Source: Pseudomonadota bacterium (GTDB lineage: Bacteria; Pseudomonadota; Gammaproteobacteria; Xanthomonadales; Rhodanobacteraceae). Taken from it: a DNA stretch of 64,000 nucleotides. Below the pieces are notes generated by a model. It did not search any database and was not told the origin of the DNA. It saw only the letters and a program-made list of their open reading frames with translations. This document shows positions 2 to 31,627 of the stretch, in pieces; the stretch's first letter is position 1; each line of letters opens with the position of its first letter. Where the stretch lies: contig JAFEFS010000100.1 of NCBI GenBank assembly GCA_018240465.1, positions 62,001 to 126,000 on the forward strand, given 5' to 3'. Made by a program: the position numbers and the translations under genes.

Positions 2-628
2 GGCGCCGACGTGGCCGATGCGTTGCGCAGCGCCGGTTTCGTCGTCGATCTGTGCACGAACGGCGAGGAGGCCTGGTTCAAGGGCGACGTCGAGGACTAT
101 GAAATCGCCGTGCTCGATCTCGGCCTGCCGCGCCTCGACGGTCTTTCCGTTCTGCGCCGCTGGCGTTCGGGCGGACGCATTTTCCCCGTGCTGATCCTGT
201 CCGCGCGCGGCGATTGGACCGAGAAGGTGCAGGGCATCGAGACCGGCGCCGACGACTACCTCGCCAAGCCGTTCGAAATGGGCGAGCTGATCGTGCGCGT
301 ACGCGCGCTCGTGCGCCGCGCCGCCGGACGCACCACGTCCGTGCTCGACTGCGGGCGACTCAAGCTCGACACCCGACGCATGTCGGCCACGCTCGACGGC
401 AAGCCGGTGCCGTTGTCGCCACTTGAGTTTCGCTTCTTCGACTATCTCGCCCACCATCCGGATCGCGCCGTGTCCGCGGGCGAGCTCGCCGAGCATCTGT
501 ACGGCGTCGCCGAATCAGGCGACACCAACGCGATCGAGGCGCTGGTCATGCGCCTGCGGCGCAAGTTCGGCGCCGACGTGGTGCAGACACGCCGCGGCTT
601 CGGCTACCTGCTCGCGGGCGCGTCCTGA
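2..628 (+). CDS. OmpR/PhoP-family response regulator, 5' end cut off by the window
   Basis: Cytoplasmic DNA-binding response regulator, partner of the kinase that follows. The reading frame is open from base 2, so the true start lies before the window. The receiver domain shows the phospho-acceptor Asp in VLDLGLP (codon 116-118), the SAR motif and the conserved KPF lysine. The C-terminal half is a winged-helix effector domain ending in RRGFGYLL, typical of OmpR/PhoP proteins. The stop overlaps the kinase start in TGATG, so the two are translationally coupled. The family is clear. The target genes cannot be told from here, and the adjacent TonB receptor is on the other strand. Confidence 0.93.
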   Translation, partial: GADVADALRSAGFVVDLCTNGEEAWFKGDVEDYEIAVLDLGLPRLDGLSVLRRWRSGGRIFPVLILSARGDWTEKVQGIETGADDYLAKPFEMGELIVRVRALVRRAAGRTTSVLDCGRLKLDTRRMSATLDGKPVPLSPLEFRFFDYLAHHPDRAVSAGELAEHLYGVAESGDTNAIEALVMRLRRKFGADVVQTRRGFGYLLAGAS

Positions 629-1983
629 TGGCGCATTCGCTGCGCCTGCGCCTGCTCTTCGGCGCGGCGATCGCCGTGTTCGTCGCCATGCTGCTGGCCT
701 GGGTGGTCATGTCGATGCTGTTTGCCCACCACATCGAGCGGCGCGCGGCGCGCGAGTTGACCTACGATGCGGTCGAACTCGTCTCCAAGCTCCGCATCGG
801 CGCCGACGGCATGCCGGTGGCCGACGATCCACCGCACGATTCGCGCTTCGAGACGCCCGACAGCGGCTACTATTGGCAATTGACGACGAAGCAGGGTGCG
901 CTGCGCTCGCATTCGCTCTGGGACGAATCGCTGCCGGCGCCTGCCGCCGCCATACAGGCGACCGCTTCTGCACGCTGGGCGTCGCGCTATGCGCCGGGCC
1001 CGTTCGGTCGCCGCGTGTTCCTGATCGAGCGCAGTGTGCGCCCCGACCGCAGCGGCGACGGCGTGCTCGTGCAGGTTGCGGTCGATGAGGCGCAGTTGAG
1101 CAGCGTGCGCCGCGAGTTCGGACGCGAACTGGCGCTGTTCCTCGCCGTGCTCTGGGCCGTACTGCTCGGCGCGGCCTGGCTGCAGGTGCAACTTGGTTTG
1201 CGTCCGCTGCGCCGCGTGCGCGAGGATCTCACCGCATTGCGTCGCGATCCCTCCGCGCGCCTCGGCGCGGTGCACCCGGTGGAAATCGCACCGTTGACCG
1301 CCGCGATCAATGATCTTGCCGAAGCGCGCGAACGCGATCTCACGCGTGCGCGCCGCCGCGCTTCCGATCTCGCCCACTCGCTGAAGACGCCACTGGCTGC
1401 ACTGAGCGCGCAGAGCCGGCGCGCGCGCGCCAGCGGCGCAACCGAAGCAGCGGACGGCCTCGACCGTGCCATCGCCGCCGCCTCCGCCGCGGTCGAAACC
1501 GAACTCGCGCGCTCGCGCGCCGCCGCGATCCGCGATACGGCGACCACCCAGGAATCTTCACCGCAACTCATCGCCGAGCGCGTGATCGGTGTGGTCGAAC
1601 GCACCGACGTGGGGGCACGCATCGTGTTCGAAGTCGACATCGACGAAAACCTGCGAGCACGGATCGCCGAGGACGACCTCACCGAAATTCTCGGTGCCTT
1701 GATCGAGAACGCCGCGCGTTTCGCGCGCCGTCGCGTGCGCGTGGCAGGCGCGTGCGCGAACGGACTGCAACTCAGCGTCGAGGACGACGGCCAGGGTCTC
1801 GACATCAGCGCGGAAACTGCGTTGATGCGCGGCGGCCGCCTCGACGAATCCGGCACGGCGCATCACGGCCTGGGCTTGTCGATCGTGCGCGATCTGGTCG
1901 AGGCGACGGCAGGCGAAATTGCCCTCGGCCGATCCGAAGCGCTGGGCGGTTTGCACGTCGCGCTGACCTGGCCCGCGGCATAG
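628..1983 (+). CDS. PhoQ-like sensor histidine kinase
   Basis: 451-residue inner-membrane sensor kinase. One membrane segment lies near residues 8-32, followed by a periplasmic sensor region of about 130 residues, a second membrane segment near 168-190, then HAMP. The H-box is AHSLKTPL with the phospho-acceptor His at residue 250; this AHSLKTP form is typical of the PhoQ group. The ATPase domain has an N-box (IENAARFA), G1 (DDGQGLD) and G2 (HHGLGLSIV). The start codon overlaps the stop of the regulator upstream. The periplasmic region is not the strongly acidic patch of enteric PhoQ in any way I can recognise, so the stimulus is unknown. Confidence 0.93.
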   Translation: MAHSLRLRLLFGAAIAVFVAMLLAWVVMSMLFAHHIERRAARELTYDAVELVSKLRIGADGMPVADDPPHDSRFETPDSGYYWQLTTKQGALRSHSLWDESLPAPAAAIQATASARWASRYAPGPFGRRVFLIERSVRPDRSGDGVLVQVAVDEAQLSSVRREFGRELALFLAVLWAVLLGAAWLQVQLGLRPLRRVREDLTALRRDPSARLGAVHPVEIAPLTAAINDLAEARERDLTRARRRASDLAHSLKTPLAALSAQSRRARASGATEAADGLDRAIAAASAAVETELARSRAAAIRDTATTQESSPQLIAERVIGVVERTDVGARIVFEVDIDENLRARIAEDDLTEILGALIENAARFARRRVRVAGACANGLQLSVEDDGQGLDISAETALMRGGRLDESGTAHHGLGLSIVRDLVEATAGEIALGRSEALGGLHVALTWPAA

Positions 1984-2048: not shown

Positions 2049-4202
2049 TCACAGTTCGACGCGGCCGGTGAATTTCAGCGTGCGCGGCTTGCCGTAGCCG
2101 AGATAGCCAGAACCTACGGCGCTCCAGTAGCTCTTGTCGGCGAGGTTTTCGACGTTGAGCTGCAAGGTAACTTTACGGTCGAACAGGTTGGTCGTGTAGC
2201 GCACGCCTGCGTTGACCAGCGCGTAATCCGGAATGTGCGCCTGGTTGAGGTTGTTTACCGCGCGCTTGGCCATGTAGTAGACGCCGGCATTGAAGCTCCA
2301 GCCCGGGAGCGCCTCGGGATGATAGTCGGCGAAAAGGCTTGCAGTGGTATCGGGCGTGTTCTCCGGCGTCTTGCCGATCAGCGCCGTGTTCTGCGCCTTG
2401 CGCAATTCGGCGTCGAGGAACAGCGCCGAGGCGTACACGGACCATTCCGGCGTCAGCTCGCCGTTGACCGAGAGGTCAACACCTTGATAGTGCGTGCGAC
2501 CGTCGAGTACGTAGACGTTGGAGGTATTGAGATACGCCGAACCGCGCTCGATCTCGAACAGCGAGGCGGAAGCGGTGATGCCGTCGATCACTTCGCTGCG
2601 CACGCCCAGTTCCTTTTGCTTGCTCACCGCCGGCGGCAGTACGACGCCGCTGTTCACGGCCGTGATCGGCGCCGTGCCGGTCTCCTCGAGGCCTTCGATG
2701 TAGTTCGCGTAGATGCTCGTGTTCTCGCGGAACTTGTAGATCGCGCCGACCGACGGTGAGGTCTTCTCGACTTCGTACAACGGTGAGCCGGTGGAGGCGT
2801 TGCGGTACTTGGTGCGGCGCGCACCGACGAGAAACTGCCAATCGTTGCCCAAGCGGACGCGGTCGAACACGTAGGCGCCGCGGTCGGTGATGTCCTGAGG
2901 GCGGTACGTCGGCTTGATCGTGTAGTACGCCGCTGGCAGCAGGATCGGGTTGTACATGTTCTGCGCGATGCTGTAAGCCTGCTGGGCCGGATTGTTCTGG
3001 TTGCGCAGGTTCTGCATCGCTCCGAACGAAACTTCGTGATCGAGGAAACCGGTTTGCACGCGGCCGTCAAGCTCGACGCGCGCGTTGTTGTTGACGTATT
3101 GCTGCCCGCGCGCGATCGATTCGTTGAGCGTGCCGGCACCCGTGTTGATGTTGTACTTCTGCATCGAAGTGAACGAGCGCGCATCGCGGTCAGTTTCCGC
3201 GCGACCCCATTCGAATATCGCGGCCCATGTGTCCGAAAGCATCCAGTCGACGCGTCCGAGCACATTTTCCGAGCCGGCCTTGCTCTTCGCCCAAGGGCCG
3301 GAGATCAGCTTGCTCGAATCGGGAATGCGTGGCAACAGGATGGTGTTGTTGACCGCGGGCAGCAGCGCGATCGCCGAGTTCTCGACGAGACGTTTGTGGA
3401 AGTTCTCGTAGTCGAGCTTGAAGGTGATGGCCTCGGTCACGCGCCAGTCGAAGGCGGCGCTGACCAGGCTGCGGCTGCCGTCCTGGTTGTCGGCGGAAGC
3501 ATGCAGCTTGCCGCTGGCGAGGTTGACGCGCAGGCCGTAGCGGTTGTTGTCGCCGAAGCGGCGGCCGACATCGACATGGCCGACCGTCTGGCCGTTGTCG
3601 TCGTAGGTGATGTCGAATGCAGCGGTCGGTCTATCGCGCGCGCGCTTGGTCACCATGTTGATGATGCCGGCGGGGCTGGTGAACCCGTAGTACAGCGCGG
3701 AGGAACCCTTCAGTGCTTCGACGCGCTCCTTGTCCTCCATCGGCATTTCGATGAGGTTGTTGACCGGCAGCGAGCCGTTGAGGCGGTAGCTCGTACGGTT
3801 GTCGATCGAGATGCCACGAATCGCGAGGTTCTGCGAAACGGTGTCGTTGATCTGCGCCTGGCTCACGCCAGCGGTGTTCTTGAGAACATCGTACAGGTTG
3901 GTTACGGCCTGTGCGTCCATCACGGCGCGCGGCAGCACGTTGATCGACAGCGGCACGTCGAGGATGTTCTGGTCGCGGAACGCGCCGACCTGCGAGGTCT
4001 TCGTCGTGAAGCCCTTGCCGACGTCGGCGGTCACACTGATCGTCTCGAGCTTGTGTTCGCTACCGTCCGCGGGTGCTTTCGCCGCGTTGGTCTGGTTCTG
4101 TGCATCGGCCATCGCAGCGTCGTCCGCGCGCGCCTGCATGCAGGCGAAGGCGAGAGTGATGCAGAACGGTAGTGCGGTCAGTTTGAAGCTGGTCGATTTC
4201 AT
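2049..4202 (-). CDS. TonB-dependent siderophore-type outer-membrane receptor
   Basis: 717-residue outer-membrane active transporter. A signal peptide of about 26 residues is followed by the family start (ETISVTAD), a plug domain (DVPLSINVLP, LAIRGISIDN, ERVEALKGSSALYYG, GIINMVTKR) and a 22-strand-type barrel ending in LKFTGRVEL. By sequence it belongs to the ferric-siderophore receptor class. It is divergent from the C45/ABC operon, and a copy of the cluster-wide inverted repeat (4320-4347) lies between them, so it is probably co-regulated with the catabolic genes. It may therefore carry the substrate of that pathway rather than iron. I see no FecR-type signalling extension. Confidence 0.93.
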   Translation of the reverse strand: MKSTSFKLTALPFCITLAFACMQARADDAAMADAQNQTNAAKAPADGSEHKLETISVTADVGKGFTTKTSQVGAFRDQNILDVPLSINVLPRAVMDAQAVTNLYDVLKNTAGVSQAQINDTVSQNLAIRGISIDNRTSYRLNGSLPVNNLIEMPMEDKERVEALKGSSALYYGFTSPAGIINMVTKRARDRPTAAFDITYDDNGQTVGHVDVGRRFGDNNRYGLRVNLASGKLHASADNQDGSRSLVSAAFDWRVTEAITFKLDYENFHKRLVENSAIALLPAVNNTILLPRIPDSSKLISGPWAKSKAGSENVLGRVDWMLSDTWAAIFEWGRAETDRDARSFTSMQKYNINTGAGTLNESIARGQQYVNNNARVELDGRVQTGFLDHEVSFGAMQNLRNQNNPAQQAYSIAQNMYNPILLPAAYYTIKPTYRPQDITDRGAYVFDRVRLGNDWQFLVGARRTKYRNASTGSPLYEVEKTSPSVGAIYKFRENTSIYANYIEGLEETGTAPITAVNSGVVLPPAVSKQKELGVRSEVIDGITASASLFEIERGSAYLNTSNVYVLDGRTHYQGVDLSVNGELTPEWSVYASALFLDAELRKAQNTALIGKTPENTPDTTASLFADYHPEALPGWSFNAGVYYMAKRAVNNLNQAHIPDYALVNAGVRYTTNLFDRKVTLQLNVENLADKSYWSAVGSGYLGYGKPRTLKFTGRVEL

Positions 4203-10698: not shown

Positions 10699-10710
10699 GA
10701 AAATCCAGAT

Positions 10711-15623: not shown

Positions 15624-15636
15624 TCGTTTCGTAGTG

Positions 15637-15668: not shown

Positions 15669-15675
15669 CTGGGAT

Positions 15676-16971: not shown

Positions 16972-16986
16972 GACTTTTCGCCTCCG

Positions 16987-17778: not shown

Positions 17779-17859
17779 GTTCTTCTCTGGAGGAGATGAA
17801 AGCGGAAAGGGATGGACTCTCCTGCCACAAGCTTTGCTCGCGCCAGGAGTTGGTTTGAC

Positions 17860-18936
17860 TCAAGGCCTGAGGTACTTGCCAAGGAAATCGAAGCAGCGTT
17901 GCAGCGCGTCGCGTTGCTCCGGCGTGTCGCCGTCCATGAAGATGTGTCCGCCCGGGGCGTTGTCGTAGGTCTTCGACTCGAACACCTTGCCTTTGGCCTT
18001 GAGCACGTCGAGCAGACGGCCCGTGTGCAGGTCGTACGGCGCGATCTTGTCGCCCTTGGTGGCGAGCACGAGCAGCGGCGTCTGGATCCGGTCGACGTGG
18101 TTGATTGGCGACACGTCCATGTACGCGGCCAGATTCTCGTTCGGCAGCTTGCCCTTGAAGTAGGCGCTTTCCCTGGCCACCTCCTGGCGGCGGTACTCGG
18201 GCTTGTAGGCCATGTAGGCGACGAAGTCGGTCAGGCCGACGATGTCGATCGCCGCGGCGAACAGTTTCGGTTCCTTTTCGATCGCGAGCAGGGTCACCAT
18301 GCCGCCGCGGCTCTGGCCGAGAATGCCGATGTGCGCCCCATCCACATAGTCCTGTCCGGCGAAGTAATGCGCCGCGCCAAGCGCGTCGGCCGTGTCGGTG
18401 ACACCGTAGTTGTTGGCGTAGTGGTTCTCGCCATAGCCGCGGCTGCCGCGGTACTCGGGGAAGATCACGACGTAGCCCTTCGCCACGGCGAGGTCGATGA
18501 GTTGGAACCAGCGCCAGTCGAAGCGCTCGTGGAAGCCGCCGTGAAGCATGACGATGGCCGGGTATTTCTTCCCTGACTCGGGTTTGACCGGTGTGAAGAC
18601 ATAGGCCGGAATCAGTGTGCCGTCGGCGCTGGCATAGGCGATGCGCTTCAGTTTCACGCGATCGCCGTGTTGTTGGATAAAGGTCAGGGTGAGGACGTGT
18701 TGTTCTTCCTCATACAAGGCGTGCGTGATCACGTCGATCTTCGTAGCGAGGTCGTCCGAGTCGCGATTGATGTACTTGTCGAGATCGCCTTCTTTGCCGA
18801 CCTTCTTGTCGGCCGTTTCCTTCTTCGCAGGAGAAGAAGTGCCGTCCTTGGCGTCGGAAGCGACTGCGGGATTTCCGGCGAATAGTGCGCTGAATACGAG
18901 TGTGCAGCACCAGGTCGCGAGATAACGTGTTTTCAT
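17860..18936 (-). CDS. Exported S9-family (prolyl oligopeptidase-like) hydrolase
   Basis: 358 residues from the ATG at 18936, with GGGAGGAAAG directly upstream; a longer frame to 19071 would overlap the preceding gene. The signal peptide spans about 25 residues (ends NPAVASDA) and is followed by a charged Lys/Asp-rich linker. The catalytic domain has YPAIVMLHGG (oxyanion region), nucleophile Ser209 in GQSRGGM, a probable acid Asp in TKGDKIAPYD and catalytic His in PGGHIF. There is no beta-propeller, so it may accept substrates larger than small peptides. Second gene of the minus-strand operon. Confidence 0.88.
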   Translation of the reverse strand: MKTRYLATWCCTLVFSALFAGNPAVASDAKDGTSSPAKKETADKKVGKEGDLDKYINRDSDDLATKIDVITHALYEEEQHVLTLTFIQQHGDRVKLKRIAYASADGTLIPAYVFTPVKPESGKKYPAIVMLHGGFHERFDWRWFQLIDLAVAKGYVVIFPEYRGSRGYGENHYANNYGVTDTADALGAAHYFAGQDYVDGAHIGILGQSRGGMVTLLAIEKEPKLFAAAIDIVGLTDFVAYMAYKPEYRRQEVARESAYFKGKLPNENLAAYMDVSPINHVDRIQTPLLVLATKGDKIAPYDLHTGRLLDVLKAKGKVFESKTYDNAPGGHIFMDGDTPEQRDALQRCFDFLGKYLRP

Positions 18937-19000
18937 TCTGCTTTCCTCCCGAATCGAATTGCTTGGCGGATCGCGGCGGTGAGCGTGCCACCGCTTCCTG

Positions 19001-20599
19001 TCAGAAACCTGAAAAATTCCATCGTGCCACCGTCGACGTATCGACGCGGCGCACATTCCACAGTCGCTCATGGCCGACCCCCCAAGGCCGGAAACCGTCG
19101 AGGTCGCGCTTGATCGCGACGACGTCGGCCGGGCAGTAGAGGACGACGAGCGGCACGTCCTCGAGCATCAGCGCGTGCATCTTGTCGAACAGCACCTGGC
19201 GTTCGGCGCGGTCAGCAGTCGCGCCGGAGGCTTCGAGCAGGGCAATGGCGTGGGGATCGTCCCAGACCTTGCGCCTACTCTTGTTCTTGTCGCCGAGCAT
19301 CGCCTCGTAGCTGAGATAAGGATCGGAGCGAGACGAATAAGCGAAGGACATGAGCTGATAGTTGCCGCTTTGGTAGCGCTCGAGCGCGGTCGCCCACTCG
19401 GTGACTTCGAGTTCGAGATGAATGCCGGCTTCGCGCGCCATCGACTGGATCATGATCGACTGGTCGTACATGTCCGGATAACGGCGATTGGTAGTGAGCT
19501 TGATCCTCTGGCCCCGGTAACTCGATTCGGCCAGTAACCGCTTTGCCCTGGCGAGATTGAATTCGTAGCCCTTCTTCTGCTCGGCGGAATAGTAGGGACT
19601 GGGCACCGGAACGAACGATGCGCTCGCAACGCCCGTGCCGCCCGAGGCGATTTCCGCAATCGCGTTCGTGTCGATCGCGAGTGCGAGCGCGCGGCGGAAC
19701 TTCACGTCCGCCAGCAGCGGATCACGCGTCTGAATCAGCAAGGCATTGACCCCGAGCAGAAGCGCGCTCTTGAGCACGATGTTCGGCAGCTTCTTGATCT
19801 GTGCGAATTCCGATACCTGCACATTCGGCAGCACGTCGATCTGACCCTTCATCAGTGCGACGCGGCGAGCGGCGTCGTCACGGATGAACAGCCAGCGGAC
19901 CTTTTCCGCGTAGGCGATCTTGCCGCCGGTGTAGCCGTCGGGCGGGCCGCCGCGAGAGGCGTAGCCGGCGAATGCGGAGAGCTCGATGTATTCACCTCGC
20001 TTCCATGTATCGAGCATGTACGGACCCGTGCCGATCGGCGTTTTCCACGAGCCGTCGGCGTTCACCGAATCGCGGTGGATGATGCCACTTGCGCCGCAAT
20101 GCAGTGCGGCCATTTGCGTAAGCAGCAACGGCGCGGCGCGGTTGAGCTTGAACACGACCGTGCGTGCGTCGGTGGCCTCGATCGATTCGATCTTGAGGCC
20201 GCGGCTGCCATCGAAATCGGCGAGGCAGGTCCACAGCGTCTTCGGATCGAGATAGCGGCGCCAGCTCCAGACCACGTCGTTCGCGGTCAGTGCGGCGCCG
20301 TTGTGGAACTTCACCCCGTCGCGCACGTGGAACGTGTAGGTCCTGCCGTCTTCGGAAACGTCGATGCTTTGCGCAAGCAGCGGCGCTACCGTGCCGTCCT
20401 CGCGATAGGCAACCAGCCCTTCGACGATGTGCATCATGACCGAATCGGTGTTGCTGTCGCGATTGACGCCGGGGTTGGTGGTGCGGATGTCGGCGTTCAT
20501 CGCGACGACGATCGTGCCCTCGGGTTTCACGTCCAGCGCCCGCGCTGGCGTCGCGGCGAAGAGGAACAGCAAGAGCAGGAAATACAGGCAAGAACGCAT
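19001..20599 (-). CDS. Oligopeptide ABC transporter substrate-binding protein (SBP family 5)
   Basis: 532-residue periplasmic binding protein with signal peptide (SCLYFLLLLFLFAATPARA). It has the family 5 start (GTIVVAMNADIRTTNPGVNRDSN), the ligand-domain YTFHVRDGVKFHNGAALTANDV and the late EATGAT-like region. No lipobox Cys, so it is probably free in the periplasm. This is the missing binding protein for the importer at 5581-9188, since no other family 5 protein is present and both units carry the same operator. First gene of the minus operon with S9, an exported protein and gabT (gaps 64, 81 and 15 bases). Confidence 0.93.
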   Translation of the reverse strand: MRSCLYFLLLLFLFAATPARALDVKPEGTIVVAMNADIRTTNPGVNRDSNTDSVMMHIVEGLVAYREDGTVAPLLAQSIDVSEDGRTYTFHVRDGVKFHNGAALTANDVVWSWRRYLDPKTLWTCLADFDGSRGLKIESIEATDARTVVFKLNRAAPLLLTQMAALHCGASGIIHRDSVNADGSWKTPIGTGPYMLDTWKRGEYIELSAFAGYASRGGPPDGYTGGKIAYAEKVRWLFIRDDAARRVALMKGQIDVLPNVQVSEFAQIKKLPNIVLKSALLLGVNALLIQTRDPLLADVKFRRALALAIDTNAIAEIASGGTGVASASFVPVPSPYYSAEQKKGYEFNLARAKRLLAESSYRGQRIKLTTNRRYPDMYDQSIMIQSMAREAGIHLELEVTEWATALERYQSGNYQLMSFAYSSRSDPYLSYEAMLGDKNKSRRKVWDDPHAIALLEASGATADRAERQVLFDKMHALMLEDVPLVVLYCPADVVAIKRDLDGFRPWGVGHERLWNVRRVDTSTVARWNFSGF

Positions 20600-21951: not shown

Positions 21952-23292
21952 ATGACTCCCTCGACGAACGACGACACTGCCTGCGCTGCCGAAGGCACAC
22001 GCGCCTACTGGATGCCGTTCACGTCCAACCGCCGCTTCAAGCGTGATCCGATCCTGTTCGATCGTGCCGAAGGCATGCATTACTTCACGCCGTCGGGCGA
22101 GAAAGTGCTCGACGCGATGGCGGGTCTTTGGTGCGTCAACGCCGGCCACGCGCATCCGCACATCACGCAGGCGATTGCGAAGCAGGCGGGCGAGCTCGAT
22201 TACGCGCCATCGTTTCAATACGGCCATCCGCGCGCGTTCGAACTCGCCGAACGCCTCGTCGCGCTCGCGCCGCAGGGCATCGAACAGGTGTTCTTCACCA
22301 ATTCCGGCTCGGAGGCGGTCGACACCGCGCTCAAGGTCGCGCTGGCGTACCATCACGCTAGGGGCCAGGCCGGGCGCACGCGCCTGATCGGGCGCGAACG
22401 CGGCTACCATGGCGTCGGCTTCGGCGGCGTCTCGGTCGGCGGCCATGCTGGCCATCGCAAACCGTTCGGCAATCTACTCGCCAGCGTCGATCACCTGCCG
22501 CACACCTACAACCGTGCGCAAACCGCGTTCATGCGCGGCGAGCCGATCTGGGGCGCGCATCTCGCCGACGACCTCGTCCGCCTCGTGCAGTTGCACGATG
22601 CCTCGACGATTGCCGCAGTGATCATCGAACCGGTGGCGGGTTCGACCGGCGTGCTGATTCCGCCGGCCGGCTACCTGCGTCGCTTGCGCGAGATCTGCGA
22701 CGAGTATGGCATCCTGTTGATCTTCGACGAAGTGATCACGGGCTTTGGCCGCCTCGGCCGTGCGTTCGGCTCGGACTACTTCGGTGTCGTGCCCGACATG
22801 ATCACCTGCGCAAAGGGCTTGACCAATGGCTGCGTGCCGATGGGTGCCGTGCTCGTGCGTGACAGCGTGCACGATGCGTTGATGCAGGGTCCGCTCTCGA
22901 CGATCGAATTGCCGCACGGCTACACGTATTCCGGTCATCCACTCGCTTGCGCCGCAGGCCTGGCTACGCTCGACGTGTACGCGCAGGAAGGCCTGTTCGG
23001 GCGCGCGGCGGCGATCGCGCCGGCGTTTGCCGACGCGGTGCACTCGCTGCAGGGATTGCCGCATGTCGCTGACATCCGCTGCATCGGCCTCATGGCCGCA
23101 ATCGATTTCGAGCCCGTGGCCGGCAAGCCTGGCGCGCGTTCCTATGCCTGCCATCGCGCCTGCCTCGATGCGGGCGTGGCGATCCGCATGGCCGGCGACG
23201 GCATCGTGTTGTCGCCGCCGCTGGTCATCGCGCAGCAGCACATCGACCAAATCGTGACGACGCTGCGGCACGCGATTGCTGGGCTCGATTGA
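21952..23292 (+). CDS. Class III omega-amino acid:pyruvate aminotransferase (beta-alanine type)
   Basis: 446 residues from the ATG at 21952; an upstream TTG at 21874 would place operator site E inside the gene. The start pattern (YWMPFTSNRRFK) and the phrase AMAGLWCVNAGHAHPHI are characteristic of beta-alanine:pyruvate/omega-amino acid aminotransferases (BauA-like). The PLP lysine is K288 in TCAKGLTNGCVPMG. Also visible are TNSGSEAVDTALK, GYHGVGFGG, EPVAGSTGV and LIFDEVITGFGR. It probably converts beta-alanine or a related omega-amine to the semialdehyde. Downstream of the regulator gene, same strand, separate promoter likely. Confidence 0.9.
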   Translation: MTPSTNDDTACAAEGTRAYWMPFTSNRRFKRDPILFDRAEGMHYFTPSGEKVLDAMAGLWCVNAGHAHPHITQAIAKQAGELDYAPSFQYGHPRAFELAERLVALAPQGIEQVFFTNSGSEAVDTALKVALAYHHARGQAGRTRLIGRERGYHGVGFGGVSVGGHAGHRKPFGNLLASVDHLPHTYNRAQTAFMRGEPIWGAHLADDLVRLVQLHDASTIAAVIIEPVAGSTGVLIPPAGYLRRLREICDEYGILLIFDEVITGFGRLGRAFGSDYFGVVPDMITCAKGLTNGCVPMGAVLVRDSVHDALMQGPLSTIELPHGYTYSGHPLACAAGLATLDVYAQEGLFGRAAAIAPAFADAVHSLQGLPHVADIRCIGLMAAIDFEPVAGKPGARSYACHRACLDAGVAIRMAGDGIVLSPPLVIAQQHIDQIVTTLRHAIAGLD

Positions 23293-23396
23293 CGCGATTG
23301 CGGCATTTCTCCTCCGGCGATTGCCGGCCGCGTGGTTTTAATGCTTCTTTCAGGTTCGTGTTCCAAGATTCGCCGCGCAATTCGAGGAGGCGACGC

Positions 23397-24401
23397 GTGA
23401 AGAGCCTGAAGGTATTCCTGTCCTGTTTGCTGTGCGTCGCGGCGGTGTCTTCCGCGGCTGCGGCACCGCGCGAGCGCATCGTCCTGCTCGTCGACGAGGT
23501 GCGCCAGATCCGCTCGTTCCCGGTGTTGATCGCCGAACAGCTCGGCTATTTCCACGACGAGGGCGTGGACGTCACCGTGATGAACATCCGCAACGAAGAG
23601 CCGTACATGGATATGCTCATGGACGGCCGCGTCGATGCGGTCATGGCGTATTACCACCACAACGTCGTGCAGCGCGCGGCAGGCAAGGACATCGAGGCCG
23701 TGGTCACGCTCGGGGTGACGCCCGGCATGCGTGTGCTGGTCGCCGATCAGTCGCGCGACAAGTACAAGACGCCTGTCGATCTGAAGGGTGCACGCATCAT
23801 CTCCGGTGGCGCCGGGTCGGCGAAGACCACGATCGCCAACTATCTCGTGCTTGCCGGCGGCCACAGGCTAGACGAGTACGCGCGTACCGGCACCGAAGGC
23901 AAGGAAGCGAATGCGCAGCTGTTGCGGGAGGGCAAGGCCGATCTCGTCGTGGCGCCGACACCGGACGGTTTTTTCTACGAGAAGCAGGGCGCCTCGCTGT
24001 TCGCCGACCTGACCACGCTCGAAGGCACGCGCAAGGCGCTCGGCGTGCCGTTCCCGTCGAACACGATCTTCATGACCAGCGCGAAGGTCAAGGAAAAGCC
24101 GGAGATTGCGCAGCACCTCGCCAATGCCTTCGTGCGCACGCTCAAGTTCATCAACACGCATACGCCGGAGCAGATCATGGAAAAGATTCCGGCCGACGTG
24201 CGCAAGCAATACGGCGATGACTACCTCAAGGTGCTCAAGGAGCAGATTCCGATGTTCGCCAACGATGGCCGCATGCCCGAGGACGGCGCGCTGGGCGAAT
24301 GGCGCGTGCTCGCCGAAGCCAATCCAAAGTACAAGACGGTCGACGTGAAGCAGACCTACACCAACGCCTTCGTGGACAAGGCGCTCAAGACGCAACACTG
24401 A
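23397..24401 (+). CDS. NMT1/THI5-like periplasmic substrate-binding protein
   Basis: 334 residues from the GTG at 23397, with GAGGAGG six bases upstream. The longer frame from 23289 lacks a site and would bury the signal peptide (VFLSCLLCVAAVSSAAAA). The fold is that of SsuA/NMT1 binding proteins: LVDEVRQIRSFPVLIAEQLGYF near the start, DAVMAYYHHNVVQRAAGKD, DLKGARIISGGAGSAKTT in the hinge region. No permease or ATPase gene is adjacent, so it is an orphan in this window. It heads an operon with the membrane reductase and an outer-membrane-type protein. Ligand unknown. Confidence 0.85.
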   Translation: MKSLKVFLSCLLCVAAVSSAAAAPRERIVLLVDEVRQIRSFPVLIAEQLGYFHDEGVDVTVMNIRNEEPYMDMLMDGRVDAVMAYYHHNVVQRAAGKDIEAVVTLGVTPGMRVLVADQSRDKYKTPVDLKGARIISGGAGSAKTTIANYLVLAGGHRLDEYARTGTEGKEANAQLLREGKADLVVAPTPDGFFYEKQGASLFADLTTLEGTRKALGVPFPSNTIFMTSAKVKEKPEIAQHLANAFVRTLKFINTHTPEQIMEKIPADVRKQYGDDYLKVLKEQIPMFANDGRMPEDGALGEWRVLAEANPKYKTVDVKQTYTNAFVDKALKTQH

Positions 24402-24414: not shown

Positions 24415-26472
24415 ATGATTGCCTTGCGCCGCGTATTGCGTCCCGTCCATCGCTGGGTCGGCCTCAGCGCCGGCCTGGTCGTCATGTGGATGGCGCTGAC
24501 CGGCATCGTTCTCGTTTTCCGCAAGCAGTTGGAAGTTCCGCAGGCGCCGGAACTGTATACCGTGCCGGCCTGCGCCAGCCACGTGTCGATCGATACGCTG
24601 GCTGCGAATGGCATGAAGGCATATCCGCGGGGCAGGCTCGACTATGTGCGCGTTCGCGCGGGCGAGGACGGCGCCGCGCGCATTCCGGCGACGGCATTCC
24701 GTTTTACCGACGAAATGTTCGTCTATCTCAACCCCTGCACCGGCGTGGTGCTCGGGTTGCGCCATCGCTGGGGCGGGCCGTTCGGCTTCGTCGAGCAATT
24801 GCATCGTTTTCGTTTCATGCGCCACGGCAATCTCATCGTCGGCACGAGCGCATTGCTGCTCGGCCTCGTACTGGTGATCGGCGGTCTGCTGCTGTGGTGG
24901 CCGGGATCGTGGCGCGGCGTGCGGCGTGCGCTGGCGTGGCACACGCCGCGGCCGGATGGCGCGGCGAAGGATATTTCCCTGCACAGGCTGATCGGGCCTT
25001 ACGTGGCCGCAATCGTGCTGTTCAGCGTGTTGACCGGCTTGCCGCAGTCGTTCGACTGGTATCGCAAAAGCGTCTACTGGCTGATGGGCTCGACCCCGCC
25101 GCGGCAGTTGCCGGCGTCGAGTGCGGTCGCGCCCGGCACGCCGCGCCTGCCGATGGAGGCGATCTGGCAGAAAGTGCAGGCAACGGTGCCGCCGTTCAAG
25201 GAAGTGCTGATCCACTATCCGCAGCACGCGGATGATGCGATCGAGATCTATTCGATCGACAAGGACGCACCGCATCCGAACGCGCGCACGCTGATGGCGA
25301 TGGATGCCTTCCGTGGCGACACGCTGAGTTACACGCCGTACGCGCAGACCAGCCTCGGCCACAAACTGTATTTCTGGACACTGTCGGCGCACATGGGTTA
25401 CGTCGGTGGCTGGATCGGCCAGTTGCTGCTGTTGCTCGGCGCGATTGGCGTGCCGTGGCTTGGGTACACCGGCATACGCAGCTGGCTGCGCCGTGCGGAA
25501 CGTGATCCGTCGCGCCTGCCGCGCTGCGTGCGCGTGGTACGCAAGACGGCCGAGGCGACGAACATCTTCACGTTCGAGCTGGCCGATCCCGACGGCGCGG
25601 CGTTGCCGGCGTTCTCGGCCGGTGCGCACATCGACGTGCAGGTGCGCGACGGCCTCGTGCGCCAGTATTCGCTGTGCAACGATCCACGCGAGACGCATCG
25701 CTATCTGATCGGCGTGTTGCGCACCAACGATTCGCGCGGTGGCTCGCGCGCGCTGCACGACGAAGTCGGCGAAGGCGACCTGATCCGCATCGGTGAGCCG
25801 CGCAACCATTTTCCGCTCGTGCACGCCGCCGAACAGTCGCTGCTGCTCGCGGCGGGCATCGGCATCACCCCGATCCTGTGCATGGCCGAGCGTCTGGCCA
25901 ATGTCGGCGCCGACTTCCATCTTCACTACTGGGCGCGATCGCGCGCGCATGCGGCATTCGTCGAGCGTGTCGAACAATCGGCGTTTGCCGATCGCGCGCA
26001 ATTCCATTTCAGCGAAGGCGTGCCTGCACAGCGTGCCAATCTCGATGAGGTGCTCGCGCGGCCCGGCGCGCGGACGCACTTGTACGTTTGCGGTCCCGTG
26101 CGTTTCATGGATGCGGCGCTGCTCGCCGCGCGGCGTGCCGGCTGGCGCGAGGAACATCTGCATCGCGAATACTTCTCCGCCGACCTGGTGCGCTCGGCGA
26201 ACGACACCGGGTTCGTGGTCAAGCTTGCCAGCTCGGGCAAGAGCTATACCGTAGGCAAGGCCAAGAGCGTGCTCGAGGTGCTCGCGGCCAACGGCGTCGT
26301 GTTGCCGCGCTCGTGCGAGCAGGGCGTCTGCGGCACCTGCCTGACCGGCGTGCTCGACGGCGTGCCCGATCACCGCGACCGCGTGCTCAGCGCCGCGGAG
26401 CGCGCGCGCAACGACCGCTTCACGCCATGCTGCTCGCGCGCGAAGAGCCCGATTCTCGTGCTGGATTTGTGA
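24415..26472 (+). CDS. PepSY-type membrane protein fused to a 2Fe-2S ferredoxin-NAD(P)H reductase
   Basis: 685 residues, a two-part fusion. Residues 1-355 form a PepSY-associated membrane part with about four membrane helices (near 12-35, 142-166, 195-215, 325-348) and conserved His residues (PVHRWVG, EQLHRFRFMRHGNL), as in membrane ferric or haem-linked reductases. Residues 365-590 form an FAD/NAD reductase (RQYSLCND for FAD, LLAAGIGITPIL for NAD). Residues 600-685 form a plant-type 2Fe-2S domain (SCEQGVCGTC and a later PCC). The arrangement suggests electrons pass from NAD(P)H through FAD, Fe-S and membrane haem to the periplasm. ATG is 13 bases after the preceding stop. Confidence 0.85.
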   Translation: MIALRRVLRPVHRWVGLSAGLVVMWMALTGIVLVFRKQLEVPQAPELYTVPACASHVSIDTLAANGMKAYPRGRLDYVRVRAGEDGAARIPATAFRFTDEMFVYLNPCTGVVLGLRHRWGGPFGFVEQLHRFRFMRHGNLIVGTSALLLGLVLVIGGLLLWWPGSWRGVRRALAWHTPRPDGAAKDISLHRLIGPYVAAIVLFSVLTGLPQSFDWYRKSVYWLMGSTPPRQLPASSAVAPGTPRLPMEAIWQKVQATVPPFKEVLIHYPQHADDAIEIYSIDKDAPHPNARTLMAMDAFRGDTLSYTPYAQTSLGHKLYFWTLSAHMGYVGGWIGQLLLLLGAIGVPWLGYTGIRSWLRRAERDPSRLPRCVRVVRKTAEATNIFTFELADPDGAALPAFSAGAHIDVQVRDGLVRQYSLCNDPRETHRYLIGVLRTNDSRGGSRALHDEVGEGDLIRIGEPRNHFPLVHAAEQSLLLAAGIGITPILCMAERLANVGADFHLHYWARSRAHAAFVERVEQSAFADRAQFHFSEGVPAQRANLDEVLARPGARTHLYVCGPVRFMDAALLAARRAGWREEHLHREYFSADLVRSANDTGFVVKLASSGKSYTVGKAKSVLEVLAANGVVLPRSCEQGVCGTCLTGVLDGVPDHRDRVLSAAERARNDRFTPCCSRAKSPILVLDL

Positions 26473-26493
26473 GTGACAACCGGAGCCGGGCAG

Positions 26494-27300
26494 ATGCGGA
26501 TGCCGTTTCGCAAGGGTCCTCCAGTGGTTGCACGCGGCATGTGCGCGCTCGCGCTGGCTGTCGCGGGCGCAGCCGCCCACGCCGACTTGACCGACGAGAT
26601 CCAGATCTACGACGACGGCATCAACAAGAAGGGCCAGCTCGGTCTGGAGCTGCATCTCAACACCACACTTGACGGTCGTTCGGAACCGGATTGGCCAGGC
26701 GAGATTCCGCCGAACCACGGCGTGCGCACCACGATGGAGTGGTCCTACGGAGTGACCGATTCGCTCGAGGCCGGGCTGTATCTGCCATTCCTGCGCGACT
26801 CGTCCGGCACCACCTATTTTGCCGGCCCGCGTTTCCGCGCCAAGTGGATGGCGTTCAAGCCTGCGGAAGGGGGTTCGGGAATGTTCGCCGGTCTCAACCT
26901 CGAGGTCGGCATGGTGAACGAACGTCTCGAACAGGGCCGTCCGAAAGTGGAGCTGCGGCCGATCCTGGGCTATCGCAACAAGGACTGGCTGGTCTCGTTC
27001 AATCCGGTGGTGGGCAAGTCGTTCCGCCCGCGCTACGGCAGTTCCAGGCCGAATTTCGCCCCTGGCATCAAGATCGCGCGCAGCATCGGCGGCGGCAACG
27101 CGATCGGTATCGAGTACTACGATGAGTTGGGCGAGTTCGGCAATTTCGAGCCGGCGCACAAGCAAAGCCAGCAATTGTTCCTCGCGTTTGACGCAGGCGG
27201 CATGGCGGTGCCTTTCAATTTCGGCATCGGTCGCGGGCTCAACGCGGCCAGCGACGCGTGGACTCTCAAGGCGATCTTCGAGGTACCGCTCGGGAATTGA
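26494..27300 (+). CDS. Predicted outer-membrane beta-barrel protein
   Basis: 268 residues from the ATG at 26494 (GGAG eight bases upstream); a GTG at 26473 is an alternative. The signal peptide ends AAAHA near residue 30. The mature part alternates hydrophobic and polar residues in short strands (YGVTDSLEAGLYLPFL, YFAGPRFRAKWMAF, GLNLEVGMVNE), typical of an outer-membrane barrel of roughly ten strands. No enzyme motif. Last gene of the binding protein-reductase operon, followed by a strong terminator. Function unknown; a porin-like role for the ligand of the operon is a guess. Confidence 0.7.
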   Translation: MRMPFRKGPPVVARGMCALALAVAGAAAHADLTDEIQIYDDGINKKGQLGLELHLNTTLDGRSEPDWPGEIPPNHGVRTTMEWSYGVTDSLEAGLYLPFLRDSSGTTYFAGPRFRAKWMAFKPAEGGSGMFAGLNLEVGMVNERLEQGRPKVELRPILGYRNKDWLVSFNPVVGKSFRPRYGSSRPNFAPGIKIARSIGGGNAIGIEYYDELGEFGNFEPAHKQSQQLFLAFDAGGMAVPFNFGIGRGLNAASDAWTLKAIFEVPLGN

Positions 27301-27357: not shown

Positions 27358-28818
27358 TCAATCCAGCTTGGCGAGTTCCTCCTTCACCTCGTTGGCATTG
27401 AGCGGGAAATAGCCGGAATACGGAATCGGTTCCTGGCCCTGTCGGCTCAGCACGTAGCGCAGGAATTCCTTGATCGGCGCAGGCAGCGGCTGGCCGTGCG
27501 CGCGGCGCATGCGGATGTACATGTAGCGCGTCAGCGGATAGCGCCCGCTCGATGCCGTATCGGCATTGATTTCGATTGCTGGCCCCACGGCGTCACGCGC
27601 GACCGGCACGGCGCGCAGGCCGGCGCCTCCTTCCTCGAGGCCGCCGAAGCCGATCGCGCCGGTGTCCGCCGCGATCGCTTTCGCCGTGGCATCGATCGAA
27701 CCCTGATGCACGTTGTGGGCCCATTCACCGCCCTGCAATACCATGAACTGCATCGACATCGCGTTCGGTGCAACGAGCGGGGGTGCGTCGAGCACGATCG
27801 GCCGGTCCGCCCATTCGCCGCCGAGGCCGAGCTGGCCCCAACGCGTGATCGACGGATTCTTGCCGAACACCGCCTTGAGTTGCGCCAGCGTGACCTGCTT
27901 GAGCGGATTCTTGTCGTTGACGAAGATCGCCTGCGCGGTCGTGCGCTGCGGCGTGTTGAAGCCACCGCGCGCGACGCGGATCTCGAACAGCTTTTCGCCG
28001 CCATGCAGACCGGCGAACGAAGCCGCTTCGTCGGGCCAGAGTTCGCGGCCCATCGGTGCGAGATCGGTCATGCCGACCATCAGTGCGCCGAAGCCGTTGA
28101 GCGTGCCGAGGTGCTCCCACGGATCGCCCTTGCGTACGCCCGGCTGCAAGGCGCGGAAGTCGCGCATCCAGCGCTGCATCAGCGATTTCATGCCGTCGCT
28201 GCCAACGCTGCGGATGTCGCCGCGGACCTGTGCGCTCGCTGCATAGACCGGCAGCGCCGGATCGAGCCGGGCGACGTAGCCGGCGATCTTCGACAGTTCC
28301 TGCGCGATGTCGTCCGGCGGCAGCGGCTGGAATCCGGCCGTTCGCGCGGCGATCTTCTGGCCTTCCGCGCTCAGCGCGAAGCGCACGAATTCGGACACCG
28401 CCGGCACGGGCGGCGTATCCGGCCGCTTGTTGAACGCGAGAAACACTGGTTTGCCGTCGTGCAGGGCGACGCGCACGCTCACCGGCGCCTTCATCATGTC
28501 GCCGGCGAATTGATGCACGTACGGCGCGATTTCCTCCTTTTCGAACGATCGCGTGATCGGCGCGACATCGGCCTGCTCGAACATCAGCGCGCCGATCGCG
28601 GCGTCGTTGCCGCGGTGCTGCCATTTCGCGCCACGCACGACGTCCGGATGCGTTCGATGCAGCGCCTGCATCCACGCGTCCATGAGCGGGCCCATCTCGC
28701 TTGCGCCGATGCTGGACACGATGATTCGTTCGGCCGCGTGACTTGTCGCAGGAAGAGGCAGAGCCGCGGTGGCCGCAGCCAGCAGCGGGGTCAACAGTCG
28801 GATCGATGCGCGGGTCAC
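27358..28818 (-). CDS. PstS-like periplasmic binding protein with duplicated, shortened N-terminal copy
   Basis: 486 residues, exported (signal peptide to about residue 28). Residues 200-486 look like a full PstS-type binding protein (SVGSDGMKSLMQRWMRDF, TLNGFGALMVGMTDLAPM, AIFVNDKNPLKQVTLAQLKAVFGK). Residues 30-190 repeat its opening and closing parts (SIGASEMGPLMDAWMQAL, FEQADVAPITRSF, FALSAEGQKIAARTAGF) but lack the middle lobe. Ordinary PstS is about 320-350 residues. No pst permease genes nearby. The start overlaps the stop of the gene upstream by 4 bases. Anion binding is the family prediction only. Confidence 0.78.
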   Translation of the reverse strand: MTRASIRLLTPLLAAATAALPLPATSHAAERIIVSSIGASEMGPLMDAWMQALHRTHPDVVRGAKWQHRGNDAAIGALMFEQADVAPITRSFEKEEIAPYVHQFAGDMMKAPVSVRVALHDGKPVFLAFNKRPDTPPVPAVSEFVRFALSAEGQKIAARTAGFQPLPPDDIAQELSKIAGYVARLDPALPVYAASAQVRGDIRSVGSDGMKSLMQRWMRDFRALQPGVRKGDPWEHLGTLNGFGALMVGMTDLAPMGRELWPDEAASFAGLHGGEKLFEIRVARGGFNTPQRTTAQAIFVNDKNPLKQVTLAQLKAVFGKNPSITRWGQLGLGGEWADRPIVLDAPPLVAPNAMSMQFMVLQGGEWAHNVHQGSIDATAKAIAADTGAIGFGGLEEGGAGLRAVPVARDAVGPAIEINADTASSGRYPLTRYMYIRMRRAHGQPLPAPIKEFLRYVLSRQGQEPIPYSGYFPLNANEVKEELAKLD

Positions 28819-29717
28819 GGGTCGATTTCCTCCGGGTTCTTGATCGCGGCAAGCCGTGTCTGCACTTCGTCGCGCAGCGCCACCGCTTTCGCTTCGAGCG
28901 CCTTCCTGTCTTCGCTGCCGCTGTAGGCATAGCCGACGTTCATCGTGCCGATCGCGGCGCCCTTGGCGTCCTTTACCGGCAGATCGACACCGAAGCGCCT
29001 GTCGTTCGAATACAGGCCCGGGATTGGCGCCGGCGCATCGAGCACTTTCATGTCGTCGCCATCCGCCGGCTTGCCGTGGCGGCCGAAGGTCGAGCCGACC
29101 ACCACGAGGTCGTTCTTCGGCGGCACCTTCAGGCGCAGCGCCAGTACGGTCACTTCGGGATGGCGGCGGAACGTTTCATCGATCAGGGCCTGCGCGCGCG
29201 AACGCGTCGTGGCTGTCGCCACGTAGGGATACGGATCGAGCAGGTTGGCCGTGTTGAGGATGTGCCGCGAGAGGTCATCGCGGATCTGTACCGATTTTTT
29301 CTCGAGTTCGGCGCGGCCGCCCGTGCCCGAGCTCGCCCAGGTCAGCGCTACCGCGCCCACGGTCAGTCCGGCGAGATCGTGCAGCGGCAGTTCGATTTCA
29401 ATCCGCCGGCTCGCGGTTTCGACGATGCGCGTCTTGCCGTTGGCAGCGACATCGACGGCCTCGCCGCTGGCGGGCGTGCCGATCCGGCCGATGTTCGAGG
29501 CGAGGACGAGGCTGGTACCCGTTTTCGGTGGTGCGGCGTAGATTTCGATGGTGCGCAGGTCTGGATGCCCAACGAGGGTACGATCCACGAGCTCCTGCGC
29601 GTAGATCTTCACCGGGATCGTGACCTGCGCATGAACTGGAGACGACAGGATCGCGATCGTCGCGAGGACTGCGATAACCGATAGTCGCATCGAGGGCCGC
29701 GTTTTGTGTTTCATCAT
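28815..29717 (-). CDS. Exported protein with two copies of an uncharacterised sensor-like domain
   Basis: 300 residues from the ATG at 29717 (CCGGGGTA upstream); the ATG at 29714 or the longer frame to 29783 are less likely. Signal peptide about 28 residues. Copy 1 (about 32-130: YAQELVDRTLVGHPDLRTIEI, PPKTG, RIGTPASG, LHDLAGLTVGAV) and copy 2 (about 160-260: AQALIDETFRRHPEVTVLAL, PPKNDLVVVG, RHGKPADGDD, VKDAKGAAIGTM) align with each other and with the single-domain protein encoded at 29917. The pattern resembles periplasmic ligand-sensing folds. Translationally coupled to the PstS-like gene, so the two may work together. Confidence 0.75.
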   Translation of the reverse strand: MMKHKTRPSMRLSVIAVLATIAILSSPVHAQVTIPVKIYAQELVDRTLVGHPDLRTIEIYAAPPKTGTSLVLASNIGRIGTPASGEAVDVAANGKTRIVETASRRIEIELPLHDLAGLTVGAVALTWASSGTGGRAELEKKSVQIRDDLSRHILNTANLLDPYPYVATATTRSRAQALIDETFRRHPEVTVLALRLKVPPKNDLVVVGSTFGRHGKPADGDDMKVLDAPAPIPGLYSNDRRFGVDLPVKDAKGAAIGTMNVGYAYSGSEDRKALEAKAVALRDEVQTRLAAIKNPEEIDP

Positions 29718-29916
29718 GTCTGTACCCCGGCGTTTGATAGTGGACGCGCGCGACACGCTAACGATGCAACCTGTCGCAAACATGAAGACTCGATAAAAAT
29801 GCGGTCAGGTCGCGAGCTTTCTGCCTGAAAGGTTTTTCAGGATCGCGACAGGGTGCGTACAGAGTCGCCGCATATATTCCGCAAACGCTTCCAAACCCGG
29901 ATGCGACAAACCCACA

Positions 29917-30465
29917 ATGAGGGAGGTTTTCATGAAACTGTCCAAGTTGACCCTGACCGTTGCTCTCGCGGGCGCAGTGATGTTCGGTGTGGCCTCTTCG
30001 GCTTCGGCCGCCGAAAAGAACTGGACCCCGCCGGCGCACAAGATCTACGGCCAGAAGCTGTCGGACGAGACGATGGCCGCGCATCCGGAACTACTCAGCA
30101 TCACGCTGCACGGCGTGCCGCCCGGCAAGACCGACGTCTATACGATGTTCGCCGGGTCCTATCTCGATCGCGTCGGCAATCCGGACGATCCGGACGATAT
30201 CGATGTCTCCAAGAAGGGCATCACGATCGTCGATCCGCGCTGGCACCGCACGCAGGACAATCCGAAGAAGTTCGTTATCCTGATGCCGATGCGCGACGCA
30301 AAGGGCGACAACATCGGTCTCGTCGTCTATGCGTGGAAGAACCCGCCGGCGAATGCGAACAACAGTGCCGACGAGCTGAGCTACCTGAAGAAGGCGAACG
30401 ATCTGCGCGATGCGCTGGCGAAGAAGATTCCGAGCTACAACGCGTTGTTCGACGAAGCCAAATAA
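29917..30465 (+). CDS. Exported single-copy homolog of the two-domain protein upstream
   Basis: 182 residues from the ATG at 29932, or a slightly longer form from 29917, with GAGGGAGG before 29932. Signal peptide LTLTVALAGAVMFGVASSASAA. The mature part has the same order of motifs as its divergent neighbour: YGQKLSDETMAAHPELLSITL, PPGKTDVYTMF, DRVGNPDDPDDIDV, LMPMRDAKGDNIGLVV, then a helical end (ADELSYLKKANDLRDALAKKI). No known enzyme motif. The neighbouring gene probably arose by duplication of this unit. Function unknown. Confidence 0.78.
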   Translation: MREVFMKLSKLTLTVALAGAVMFGVASSASAAEKNWTPPAHKIYGQKLSDETMAAHPELLSITLHGVPPGKTDVYTMFAGSYLDRVGNPDDPDDIDVSKKGITIVDPRWHRTQDNPKKFVILMPMRDAKGDNIGLVVYAWKNPPANANNSADELSYLKKANDLRDALAKKIPSYNALFDEAK

Positions 30466-30592
30466 GCTGCAGCGGACGCGGTTTGCTGCACGGCCGAACC
30501 GGATTCCGTTCGCGGTGTGCATGGCACCGTGGGCGGCATCCGGCGTGTTGTCCGACAGCAAAGCCTCACCCAAGCCCATAGGGAAACGACAC

Positions 30593-31627
30593 ATGAAACC
30601 GAAAATCCACGCGCTCGCCGCAGCCCTGGCCTTCATCCTGCCCGTACTTGCGTTTGCCGATGGCCCAGCCCCGCTCAAGCCGCTTGGTCGCACCGACATG
30701 CCCGGCTACGACGGCGATTTCGATCACTTCGGCGCCGACGTCAAGGGCGATCGCCTGTTCCTCGCCGGCGAGGAAGGCGGCGAGCTCGACGTCTTCAACC
30801 TGCACAGCGGTGCGCACCTGAAAACCGTCAAGGGCATGGAAGAGCCGCATGCGATCTACTACGACGCGAACAAGGATCGTATCTTCCTCAGTAACTCCGG
30901 CAATGGCCTGACCCACATCCTCGACGGCAAGACCTACGCGCAGATCGGCACGGTCAAGCTGATCCCGGGCGCCGATGTGATGTACCACGATCCATCCACC
31001 AACCGCCTCTGGTTCGTTGTGGGCGGCAAGAACGCGCCGACGAAGTTGCCCAAGGTCACGGTTGCCCAGGTCGACCCCGAAACGGGCAAGACAGTCAGCG
31101 AAACCCAGTTCGACACCGACTTCACCGAGGGCATCATCGCCGAGCAGCACGGTTCGCACGTATACGTCAACGTGGCTGGTCTGAGTGAAATTGCCGTGCT
31201 CGACAAGAAGACCGGCAAGGTACTTTCCACCTGGCCGGTAAAGGAAGGGCAGAACAACTCGGCCATCGACCTCGACGAGAAGAACAAGCGCCTGTTCATC
31301 ATCACGCGAAAGCCGTTCAAGCTCGTGGTCGTCAACACCGACAACGGTCAGTCGGTAGCAAGCTTCGATGCGCCTGGTCGCACCAACGGTTTGATCTTCG
31401 ATGCGGCCAACCGCCGTATCTACGCCTGCGGTGATGACTACACCGGCGTGTTCGCCCAGCGCGATGCGGACCACTACGTGGAACTTGCCCGCGTGCCTAC
31501 GGAAAAAGGCGCGAAGACGTGTTTTCTCGCTCCCGAAGTCGGCCAGTTCTATCTTGCCGTCGGCGGCGCGAAGGACACGAAGGCCGGGCTGCTGCGCTAC
31601 GCTGTGGTGCCGGGCGACGCGAAGTAG
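30593..31627 (+). CDS. YncE-like exported beta-propeller protein
   Basis: 344 residues from the ATG at 30593 (AGGGAAA upstream); the frame is open from 30410 but that part overlaps the preceding gene. Signal peptide AALAFILPVLAFA. The mature protein is built of repeating blades with the YVTN/YncE pattern: GDRLFLAGEEGGELDVFNL, DRIFLSNSGNGLTHIL, HVYVNVAGLSEIAVLD, RRIYACGDDYTGVFAQ. Such propellers usually bind proteins or small ligands in the periplasm and are not enzymes. Same strand as the sensor-like gene 127 bases upstream. Confidence 0.83.
   Translation: MKPKIHALAAALAFILPVLAFADGPAPLKPLGRTDMPGYDGDFDHFGADVKGDRLFLAGEEGGELDVFNLHSGAHLKTVKGMEEPHAIYYDANKDRIFLSNSGNGLTHILDGKTYAQIGTVKLIPGADVMYHDPSTNRLWFVVGGKNAPTKLPKVTVAQVDPETGKTVSETQFDTDFTEGIIAEQHGSHVYVNVAGLSEIAVLDKKTGKVLSTWPVKEGQNNSAIDLDEKNKRLFIITRKPFKLVVVNTDNGQSVASFDAPGRTNGLIFDAANRRIYACGDDYTGVFAQRDADHYVELARVPTEKGAKTCFLAPEVGQFYLAVGGAKDTKAGLLRYAVVPGDAK

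Follow-up and report, generated by a model that had tools for sequence, protein, structure and literature searches.

PepSY_TM proteins are described as haem-using periplasmic reductases of ferrisiderophores, with CrpH possibly acting on copper (PMC13038864, PMC10866019, PMC12424826). PMC13038864 calls the electron donor of FoxB unknown, and also presents CrpH of Bordetella pertussis as a PepSY_TM protein with conserved histidines whose operon includes a TonB receptor. Proteins of this group that bring their own electron supply are known already, since PMC8238504 counts 1077 PepSY-like genes with the NAD-binding domain PF00175; fusions to a phthalate dioxygenase reductase (PDR) module may be among them. 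PMC9045290 lists a gene cluster of Brucella comprising PepSY_TM, flavodoxin and FNR parts, and according to the authors of the HiuABC study no periplasmic binding protein for imported siderophores had so far been identified (PMC12424826). A literature search conducted mostly among papers outside subscription found no PepSY-PDR (2Fe-2S) fusion.

The window, by which we mean the whole stretch of 64,000 nucleotides analysed here, from the genome of a soil bacterium of the genus Rudaea, encodes such a fusion (Table 1). Its frame is uninterrupted from the ATG at 24415 to the stop at 26472, and combines a PepSY_TM (PF03929) match at residues 11-360 (159.9 bits, cut-off 28.8) with NAD_binding_1 at 477-568 (22.9 bits, barely above the cut-off of 22) and Fer2 at 605-677 (41.1 bits, cut-off 21). 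The best PDB match is phthalate dioxygenase reductase, 2pia, aligned over its whole length with residues 373-685 (E 1.5e-64), and the next matches of the C-terminal part are two CYP116B-type P450 fusions. Residues C634, C639, C642 and C672 align with the [2Fe-2S] cysteine region of 2pia, and in the alignment the module is complete, with flavin, NAD and C-terminal 2Fe-2S parts in PDR order and the cluster cysteines present. An earlier note on this DNA, which proposed a PepSY membrane part joined to a full PDR-like module, was thus correct on this point. Its label of 'FAD/2Fe-2S reductase' stands for the 2Fe-2S part, given the Fer2 match and the aligned cysteines, but FAD is probably wrong: PDR, the closest solved relative, is an FMN enzyme, and by analogy with the closest relatives the flavin is more likely to be FMN. 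Several FNR-type NCBIfam models also match the fusion, all with scores so far under their cut-offs that we claim no named enzyme.

Table 1. Features of the fusion locus and of the gene set around it, in window coordinates.
Feature	Coordinates	Strand	Basis
Two-component pair next to the receptor: response regulator (11-628), histidine kinase (628-1983)	11..1983	+	Family matches; a pair near the receptor also in G053, G200 and Azoarcus
TonB-dependent receptor of siderophore type, at 20 kb from the fusion; proposed entry point at the outer membrane	2049..4202	-	TIGR01783 311.6 bits, cut-off 223.5
NMT1/THI5-type periplasmic binding protein, no adjacent permease	23289..24401	+	Pfam NMT1 59.4 bits (cut-off 20.5); PDB 3qsl (putative exported protein) E 4.4e-28
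PepSY_TM-PDR fusion of 685 aa, with a predicted membrane haem-reductase unit (aa 11-360) and a predicted cytosolic flavin/NAD/2Fe-2S module (aa 373-685)	24415..26472	+	Open reading frame, Pfam, PDB, alignments
Exported protein, family unassigned, possibly an outer-membrane barrel	26473..27300	+	No Pfam match
PstS-like periplasmic binding protein (PBP_like_2), probably linked	27358..28818	-	Pfam; relatives in the Azoarcus (31%) and Paraburkholderia (36% and 31%) clusters
hyp322, exported, two GAF/Cache-like repeats	28815..29783	-	Same domains N-terminal on Azoarcus and Paraburkholderia TonB receptors
hyp182, exported single-domain GAF/Cache-like protein	29917..30465	+	Azoarcus relative (68% identity) immediately 3' of the fusion
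YncE-like beta-propeller protein, probably linked; actual start probably internal	30410..31627	+	Pfam/NCBIfam, cluster comparison

The likeness to the PDR family extends over the full length of 2pia, [2Fe-2S] cysteines included, and CYP116B P450 fusions likewise join this module to a haem protein; there it serves soluble oxygenases or a P450, whereas in the Rudaea fusion it would serve a predicted membrane haem reductase. PepSY-flavodoxin-FNR (diflavin) fusions, such as those at loci L064 (838 aa) and L100, share the built-in NAD(P)H supply but lack the PDR-type flavin/NAD/2Fe-2S module in which the Rudaea protein ends.

Full-length copies of the fusion are present in 4 of the 16 genomes of the genus, the window's own included (G000, G053, G200 and G203; 75-85% identity). 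Comparison of the window sequence with the three other Rudaea sequences gives dN/dS of about 0.21-0.26 (0.083/0.403, 0.170/0.654 and 0.152/0.601), with purifying selection on both halves; together with the retention of full length in these four genomes, this shows that the fusion is not a chance frame. A search for related loci returned two, both from close relatives, one of them (L004) being Rudaea sp. 3F27F6, the same assembly as G200; locus L003 gives the same alignment row as the G203 copy (L019). Of 72,556 plasmid records searched, 1257 match the fusion and three do so over at least 80% of the query, from Azoarcus sp. KH32C, Paraburkholderia sp. PGU19 and Massilia litorea; with the four Rudaea these make up the seven distinct fusion sequences compared below.

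The fusion is found at full length in 2 of 200 genomes of the order, both Rudaea, and in 1 of 370 genomes of the class and 1 of 397 of the phylum, its own genome each time, although only two to three candidates per genome were scored in the class and phylum screens and stand-alone PDRs may have crowded out fusions there. At E 1e-50 the N-terminal profile matches a single genome among 399 of another order, and that match is a diflavin fusion. PF03929 is present in 30 of 140 class genomes (40 matches); a PDR part occurs at none of the 30 loci examined among these matches, and a diflavin part at one (L100). The genome samples behind these counts overlap. In this limited first look the PepSY_TM-PDR fusion is rare, outside Rudaea being absent from the genome samples searched and present in three plasmid records. 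PepSY proteins with an NAD-binding domain have already been published, and the PDR/2Fe-2S version looks like a rare variant with unusual wiring and partners.

It is very improbable that the fusion is a non-functional or accidental joining of genes, with no electron supply from the PDR part to the membrane part. The same joint is present in four Rudaea species, Azoarcus and Massilia, and selection has acted on both halves, although the Paraburkholderia copy is annotated as two genes with the 2Fe-2S part separate. That split also counts against the reading that we favour below; since both the fusion and the NMT1-type gene are in pieces in Paraburkholderia, the locus there may be decaying or carry sequencing errors.

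In the N-terminal half, a profile search of the PDB returns FoxB of Pseudomonas aeruginosa (7abw) as the only match up to E 10 (E 7.9e-13). The profile alignment sets H12, H130, H190 and H326 each opposite a histidine of 7abw, H326 doing so only within a weak second stretch (i-Evalue 0.82), which weighs against the favoured reading. These four and H287 are invariant in all seven distinct fusion sequences, whose N-terminal halves align down to 34% identity, and by sequence H12, H130, H190 and H326 are the putative counterparts of the FoxB haem ligands. The possibility raised in the earlier note, that relatives might lack haem-ligand histidines in the membrane part, is thus not borne out.

The fusion has four hydrophobic segments, near residues 17-35, 140-158, 192-210 and 328-346, and positive charge is concentrated in the Arg-rich N-terminus, in the loop 163-191 and after the fourth segment. 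This positive-inside pattern would place the PDR module in the cytosol, and with it H12 and H190 at the inner side of the membrane and H130 and H326 at the outer side. Four transmembrane helices flanking two predicted periplasmic PepSY domains fit the hydropathy and charge pattern, and the secondary structure of a low-confidence model agrees. The model itself is poor (mean pLDDT 43.8, built from an alignment of four distinct sequences), which is a further point against the favoured reading; a structural search with it gives FoxB 7abw first (Z 12.8, rmsd 10.2, 240 aligned), followed by CYP116B46 (Z 5.9) and PDR (Z 5.7), and given the quality of the model the FoxB match is only a hint.

The first predicted periplasmic loop contains two further invariant residues, C53 and C108, present in all seven sequences. 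No cysteine is found at the matching places in the aligned FoxB, nor in that stretch of the genome's other PepSY_TM protein. The simple reading is a structural disulfide, but the pair may have a thiol redox role; nothing was found pointing to the periplasmic repair electron route once suggested for this protein, with the cysteines leaving a thiol role possible. FoxB, FhuB, FpvG, FsrB and HiuB resemble the fusion in the PepSY_TM unit, the four matching histidines and the two putative periplasmic PepSY domains, but they are without a reductase module, whereas the Rudaea protein has its donor chain attached and carries the invariant cysteine pair.

Thirteen bases separate the fusion start from the upstream NMT1-type gene, which probably begins at GTG 23400, where its signal peptide seems to start, rather than at TTG 23289. 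A binding-protein gene lies at or near the fusion at all seven loci, and the conservation of gene order, named beforehand as a test, therefore holds for this partner. It is of NMT1 type at six of them: immediately upstream in all four Rudaea, overlapping the fusion in Azoarcus, and about 1.2 kb downstream, in two pieces, in Paraburkholderia. At the seventh, in Massilia, a family-5 binding-protein gene lies 23 bases upstream. No permease or ATPase for the NMT1-type protein is present among the adjacent genes, as had been noted of this orphan, and such ABC permeases as were identified in the window are all of Opp/Dpp type (5581-7349, with an ATPase at 7353-9188). NMT1 and family-5 proteins usually bind organic solutes, and we know of no NMT1-type protein that binds siderophores, which speaks against the reading favoured here.

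On its other side the fusion is followed directly after its stop by the 26473-27300 frame. This has no Pfam match up to E 1, so that 'barrel-type', as it was first called, describes no more than the look of its sequence. In each of the four Rudaea the gene adjoins the fusion 3', the other three copies being 84%, 80% and 51% identical to that of the window, but it has no match at the three plasmid loci, and as a neighbour it holds for the genus and not for the plasmids.

The TonB receptor is proposed to take part as well, and its distance from the fusion, with catabolic genes in between, counts against the favoured reading. The Azoarcus and Paraburkholderia clusters each have a TonB receptor with two hyp322-like domains at the N-terminus (the domains at L061:291-1250 and L062:17909-18900, respectively); the former passes TIGR01783 (245.1) and the latter falls narrowly below its cut-off (219.8). 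When the window's own genome is searched with the Azoarcus receptor minus these domains, the window receptor is recovered at E 1.4e-116 and the next match, on contig C65, at 1.0e-16. That C65 receptor forms a FoxA/FoxB-like pairing with the one other PepSY_TM gene of the genome, about 2.4 kb away. The receptor and the two-component pair share an island with the fusion in G053 and its contig in G200, about 41 kb away. No receptor was found in G203 and none is annotated near the Massilia fusion, both points against the favoured reading, and the fourth receptor match, in G213, is only 29% identical. A further such point is that the E. coli Fur box consensus has no match in the window with up to three mismatches, other iron control being possible; a promoter and terminator scan of the window gave nothing above shuffles.

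The interval between receptor and fusion (4351-19071) is an amine/amide catabolic island, mostly retained in G053, that encodes a C45 hydrolase, the Opp/Dpp transporter, an aldehyde dehydrogenase, an amidohydrolase and aminotransferases, including those of class III. The fusion could belong to this island and reduce an organic compound or a disulfide held by the binding protein in the periplasm, with no part in metal uptake; such a role would fit the usual solutes of the binding proteins, the invariant C53 and C108, and the surroundings of the Massilia fusion, where aminotransferase and semialdehyde dehydrogenase genes are found. We nevertheless consider it unlikely, because the receptor is of siderophore type, the genes upstream of the NMT1 gene are different ones at the G203 locus (L003), and the PepSY_TM proteins characterised in PMC13038864, PMC10866019 and PMC12424826 act on metal chelates. 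Siderophore catabolism as a sole explanation for receptor, reductase and amide/amine genes was also considered and set aside, as the catabolic genes are not at every locus and the literature search found nothing relevant; it is retained only as part of this catabolic alternative.

A different substrate for the same electron path would be copper or another metal destined for respiratory oxidase assembly, as proposed for CrpH. According to PMC13038864 the PepSY_TM family does include this protein, tied to copper and oxidase function, and CrpH resembles the fusion in its conserved histidines and its link to a TonB receptor, but differs in the proposed copper role and in that no reductase module is described for it there. 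The island receptor passes the siderophore-receptor model TIGR01783, and the genes scanned include none identified as a copper or oxidase gene, so that a copper role seems distinctly improbable.

From the fusion, the module identities, the conserved histidines, the positive-inside pattern and the recurrent binding-protein neighbour, all read from sequence, we infer the cofactors, the electron path, a chelate substrate and the roles of binding protein and receptor. The reading that we favour, at a probability of roughly 60%, is a self-contained transmembrane reductase that carries electrons from NAD(P)H through flavin, [2Fe-2S] cluster and haems to a periplasmic metal chelate, which the binding protein and receptor would supply. 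The cytosolic PDR module would take hydride from NAD(P)H onto its flavin (probably FMN), and single electrons would then pass by way of the [2Fe-2S] cluster at the C-terminus to an inner haem b with H12 and H190 as its ligands. The next carrier would be an outer haem, bound by H130 and H326, from which the electrons would reach a metal chelate occupying the cavity of the two periplasmic PepSY domains. Delivery of the chelate or removal of the freed ligand, rather than the feeding of an ABC importer, is the probable task of the neighbouring binding protein, and the siderophore-type TonB receptor of the island probably admits the chelate across the outer membrane. The transmembrane-reductase mechanism is likely, and the proposal of a single-protein electron route between NAD(P)H and the periplasm gains from the presence of all the needed modules and the conservation of the FoxB-like histidines. 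The substrate is a candidate only, our best guess being a ferric or other metal chelate, most likely ferric; for haem, the other ligand initially suggested, nothing was found.

The cluster is larger than the three genes originally described, and adds the TonB receptor, the two-component pair, the PstS-like protein, the GAF/Cache-like proteins and the YncE-like propeller. This larger periplasmic gene set may be the more novel part of the locus. The PstS-like, hyp322, hyp182 and YncE-like genes follow in the window, in L003 and in G053, and relatives of the set lie about 70 kb away on the same contig in G200. The hyp182 and YncE-like genes come directly after the fusion in Azoarcus and about 9 kb from it in Paraburkholderia. 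Within the genus hyp182 is found in exactly the 4 of 16 genomes that carry the fusion, for which random placement gives 1 in 1820, though the four may be close relatives and many of the others are incomplete, so that the co-occurrence points only weakly to a link; among 299 genomes of the phylum it is found in one, its own. Polymorphobacter plasmids also have relatives of hyp182, hyp322 and the YncE-like gene; TonB receptors, a cytochrome b-type gene and a two-component pair lie close by, and the 28 kb examined of that cluster contain no annotated PepSY gene.

The model of hyp182 (pLDDT 68.7) is about as close to GAF domains as it is to free methionine-R-sulfoxide reductases (Z about 11.5). 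An enzyme of the latter type was considered and abandoned because hyp182 has no cysteine. Sequence matches of the GAF/Cache-like protein to Cache are not significant (E 0.055-0.1).

Several other features of these clusters were observed. The PstS-like protein seems internally duplicated, its residues 125-178 and its C-terminal end matching the same stretch of L062. Cytochrome b561-type genes are present in the Azoarcus (L061:7940-8473) and Polymorphobacter (L069:19873-20433) clusters, a possible second electron route. Contig C86 of the window's own genome (L073:5136-12285) has a two-component pair, a TonB receptor, a YncE-like gene and a hyp322-like gene side by side, with no PepSY gene seen, and an exported protein of the window without a family match (16987-17778) has a 48% identical relative just downstream of the Paraburkholderia fusion (L062:12516-13244).

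A broader and more speculative picture, which we hold to be doubtful, is that of a permease-free, NADH-driven machine for reductive uptake, in which orphan binding proteins would shuttle chelate from TonB receptor to a self-powered haem reductase, and periplasmic GAF/Cache-like domains, fused to the receptor in two species, would report chelate occupancy, perhaps to the neighbouring two-component pair. Such a machine would be rare and partly plasmid-borne in beta- and gammaproteobacteria, with related fusion-less gene sets in an alphaproteobacterium. For the FoxB-type reductases, the natural fusion suggests one possible donor chain, contained within a single protein, and the binding proteins linked to it are candidate periplasmic shuttles.
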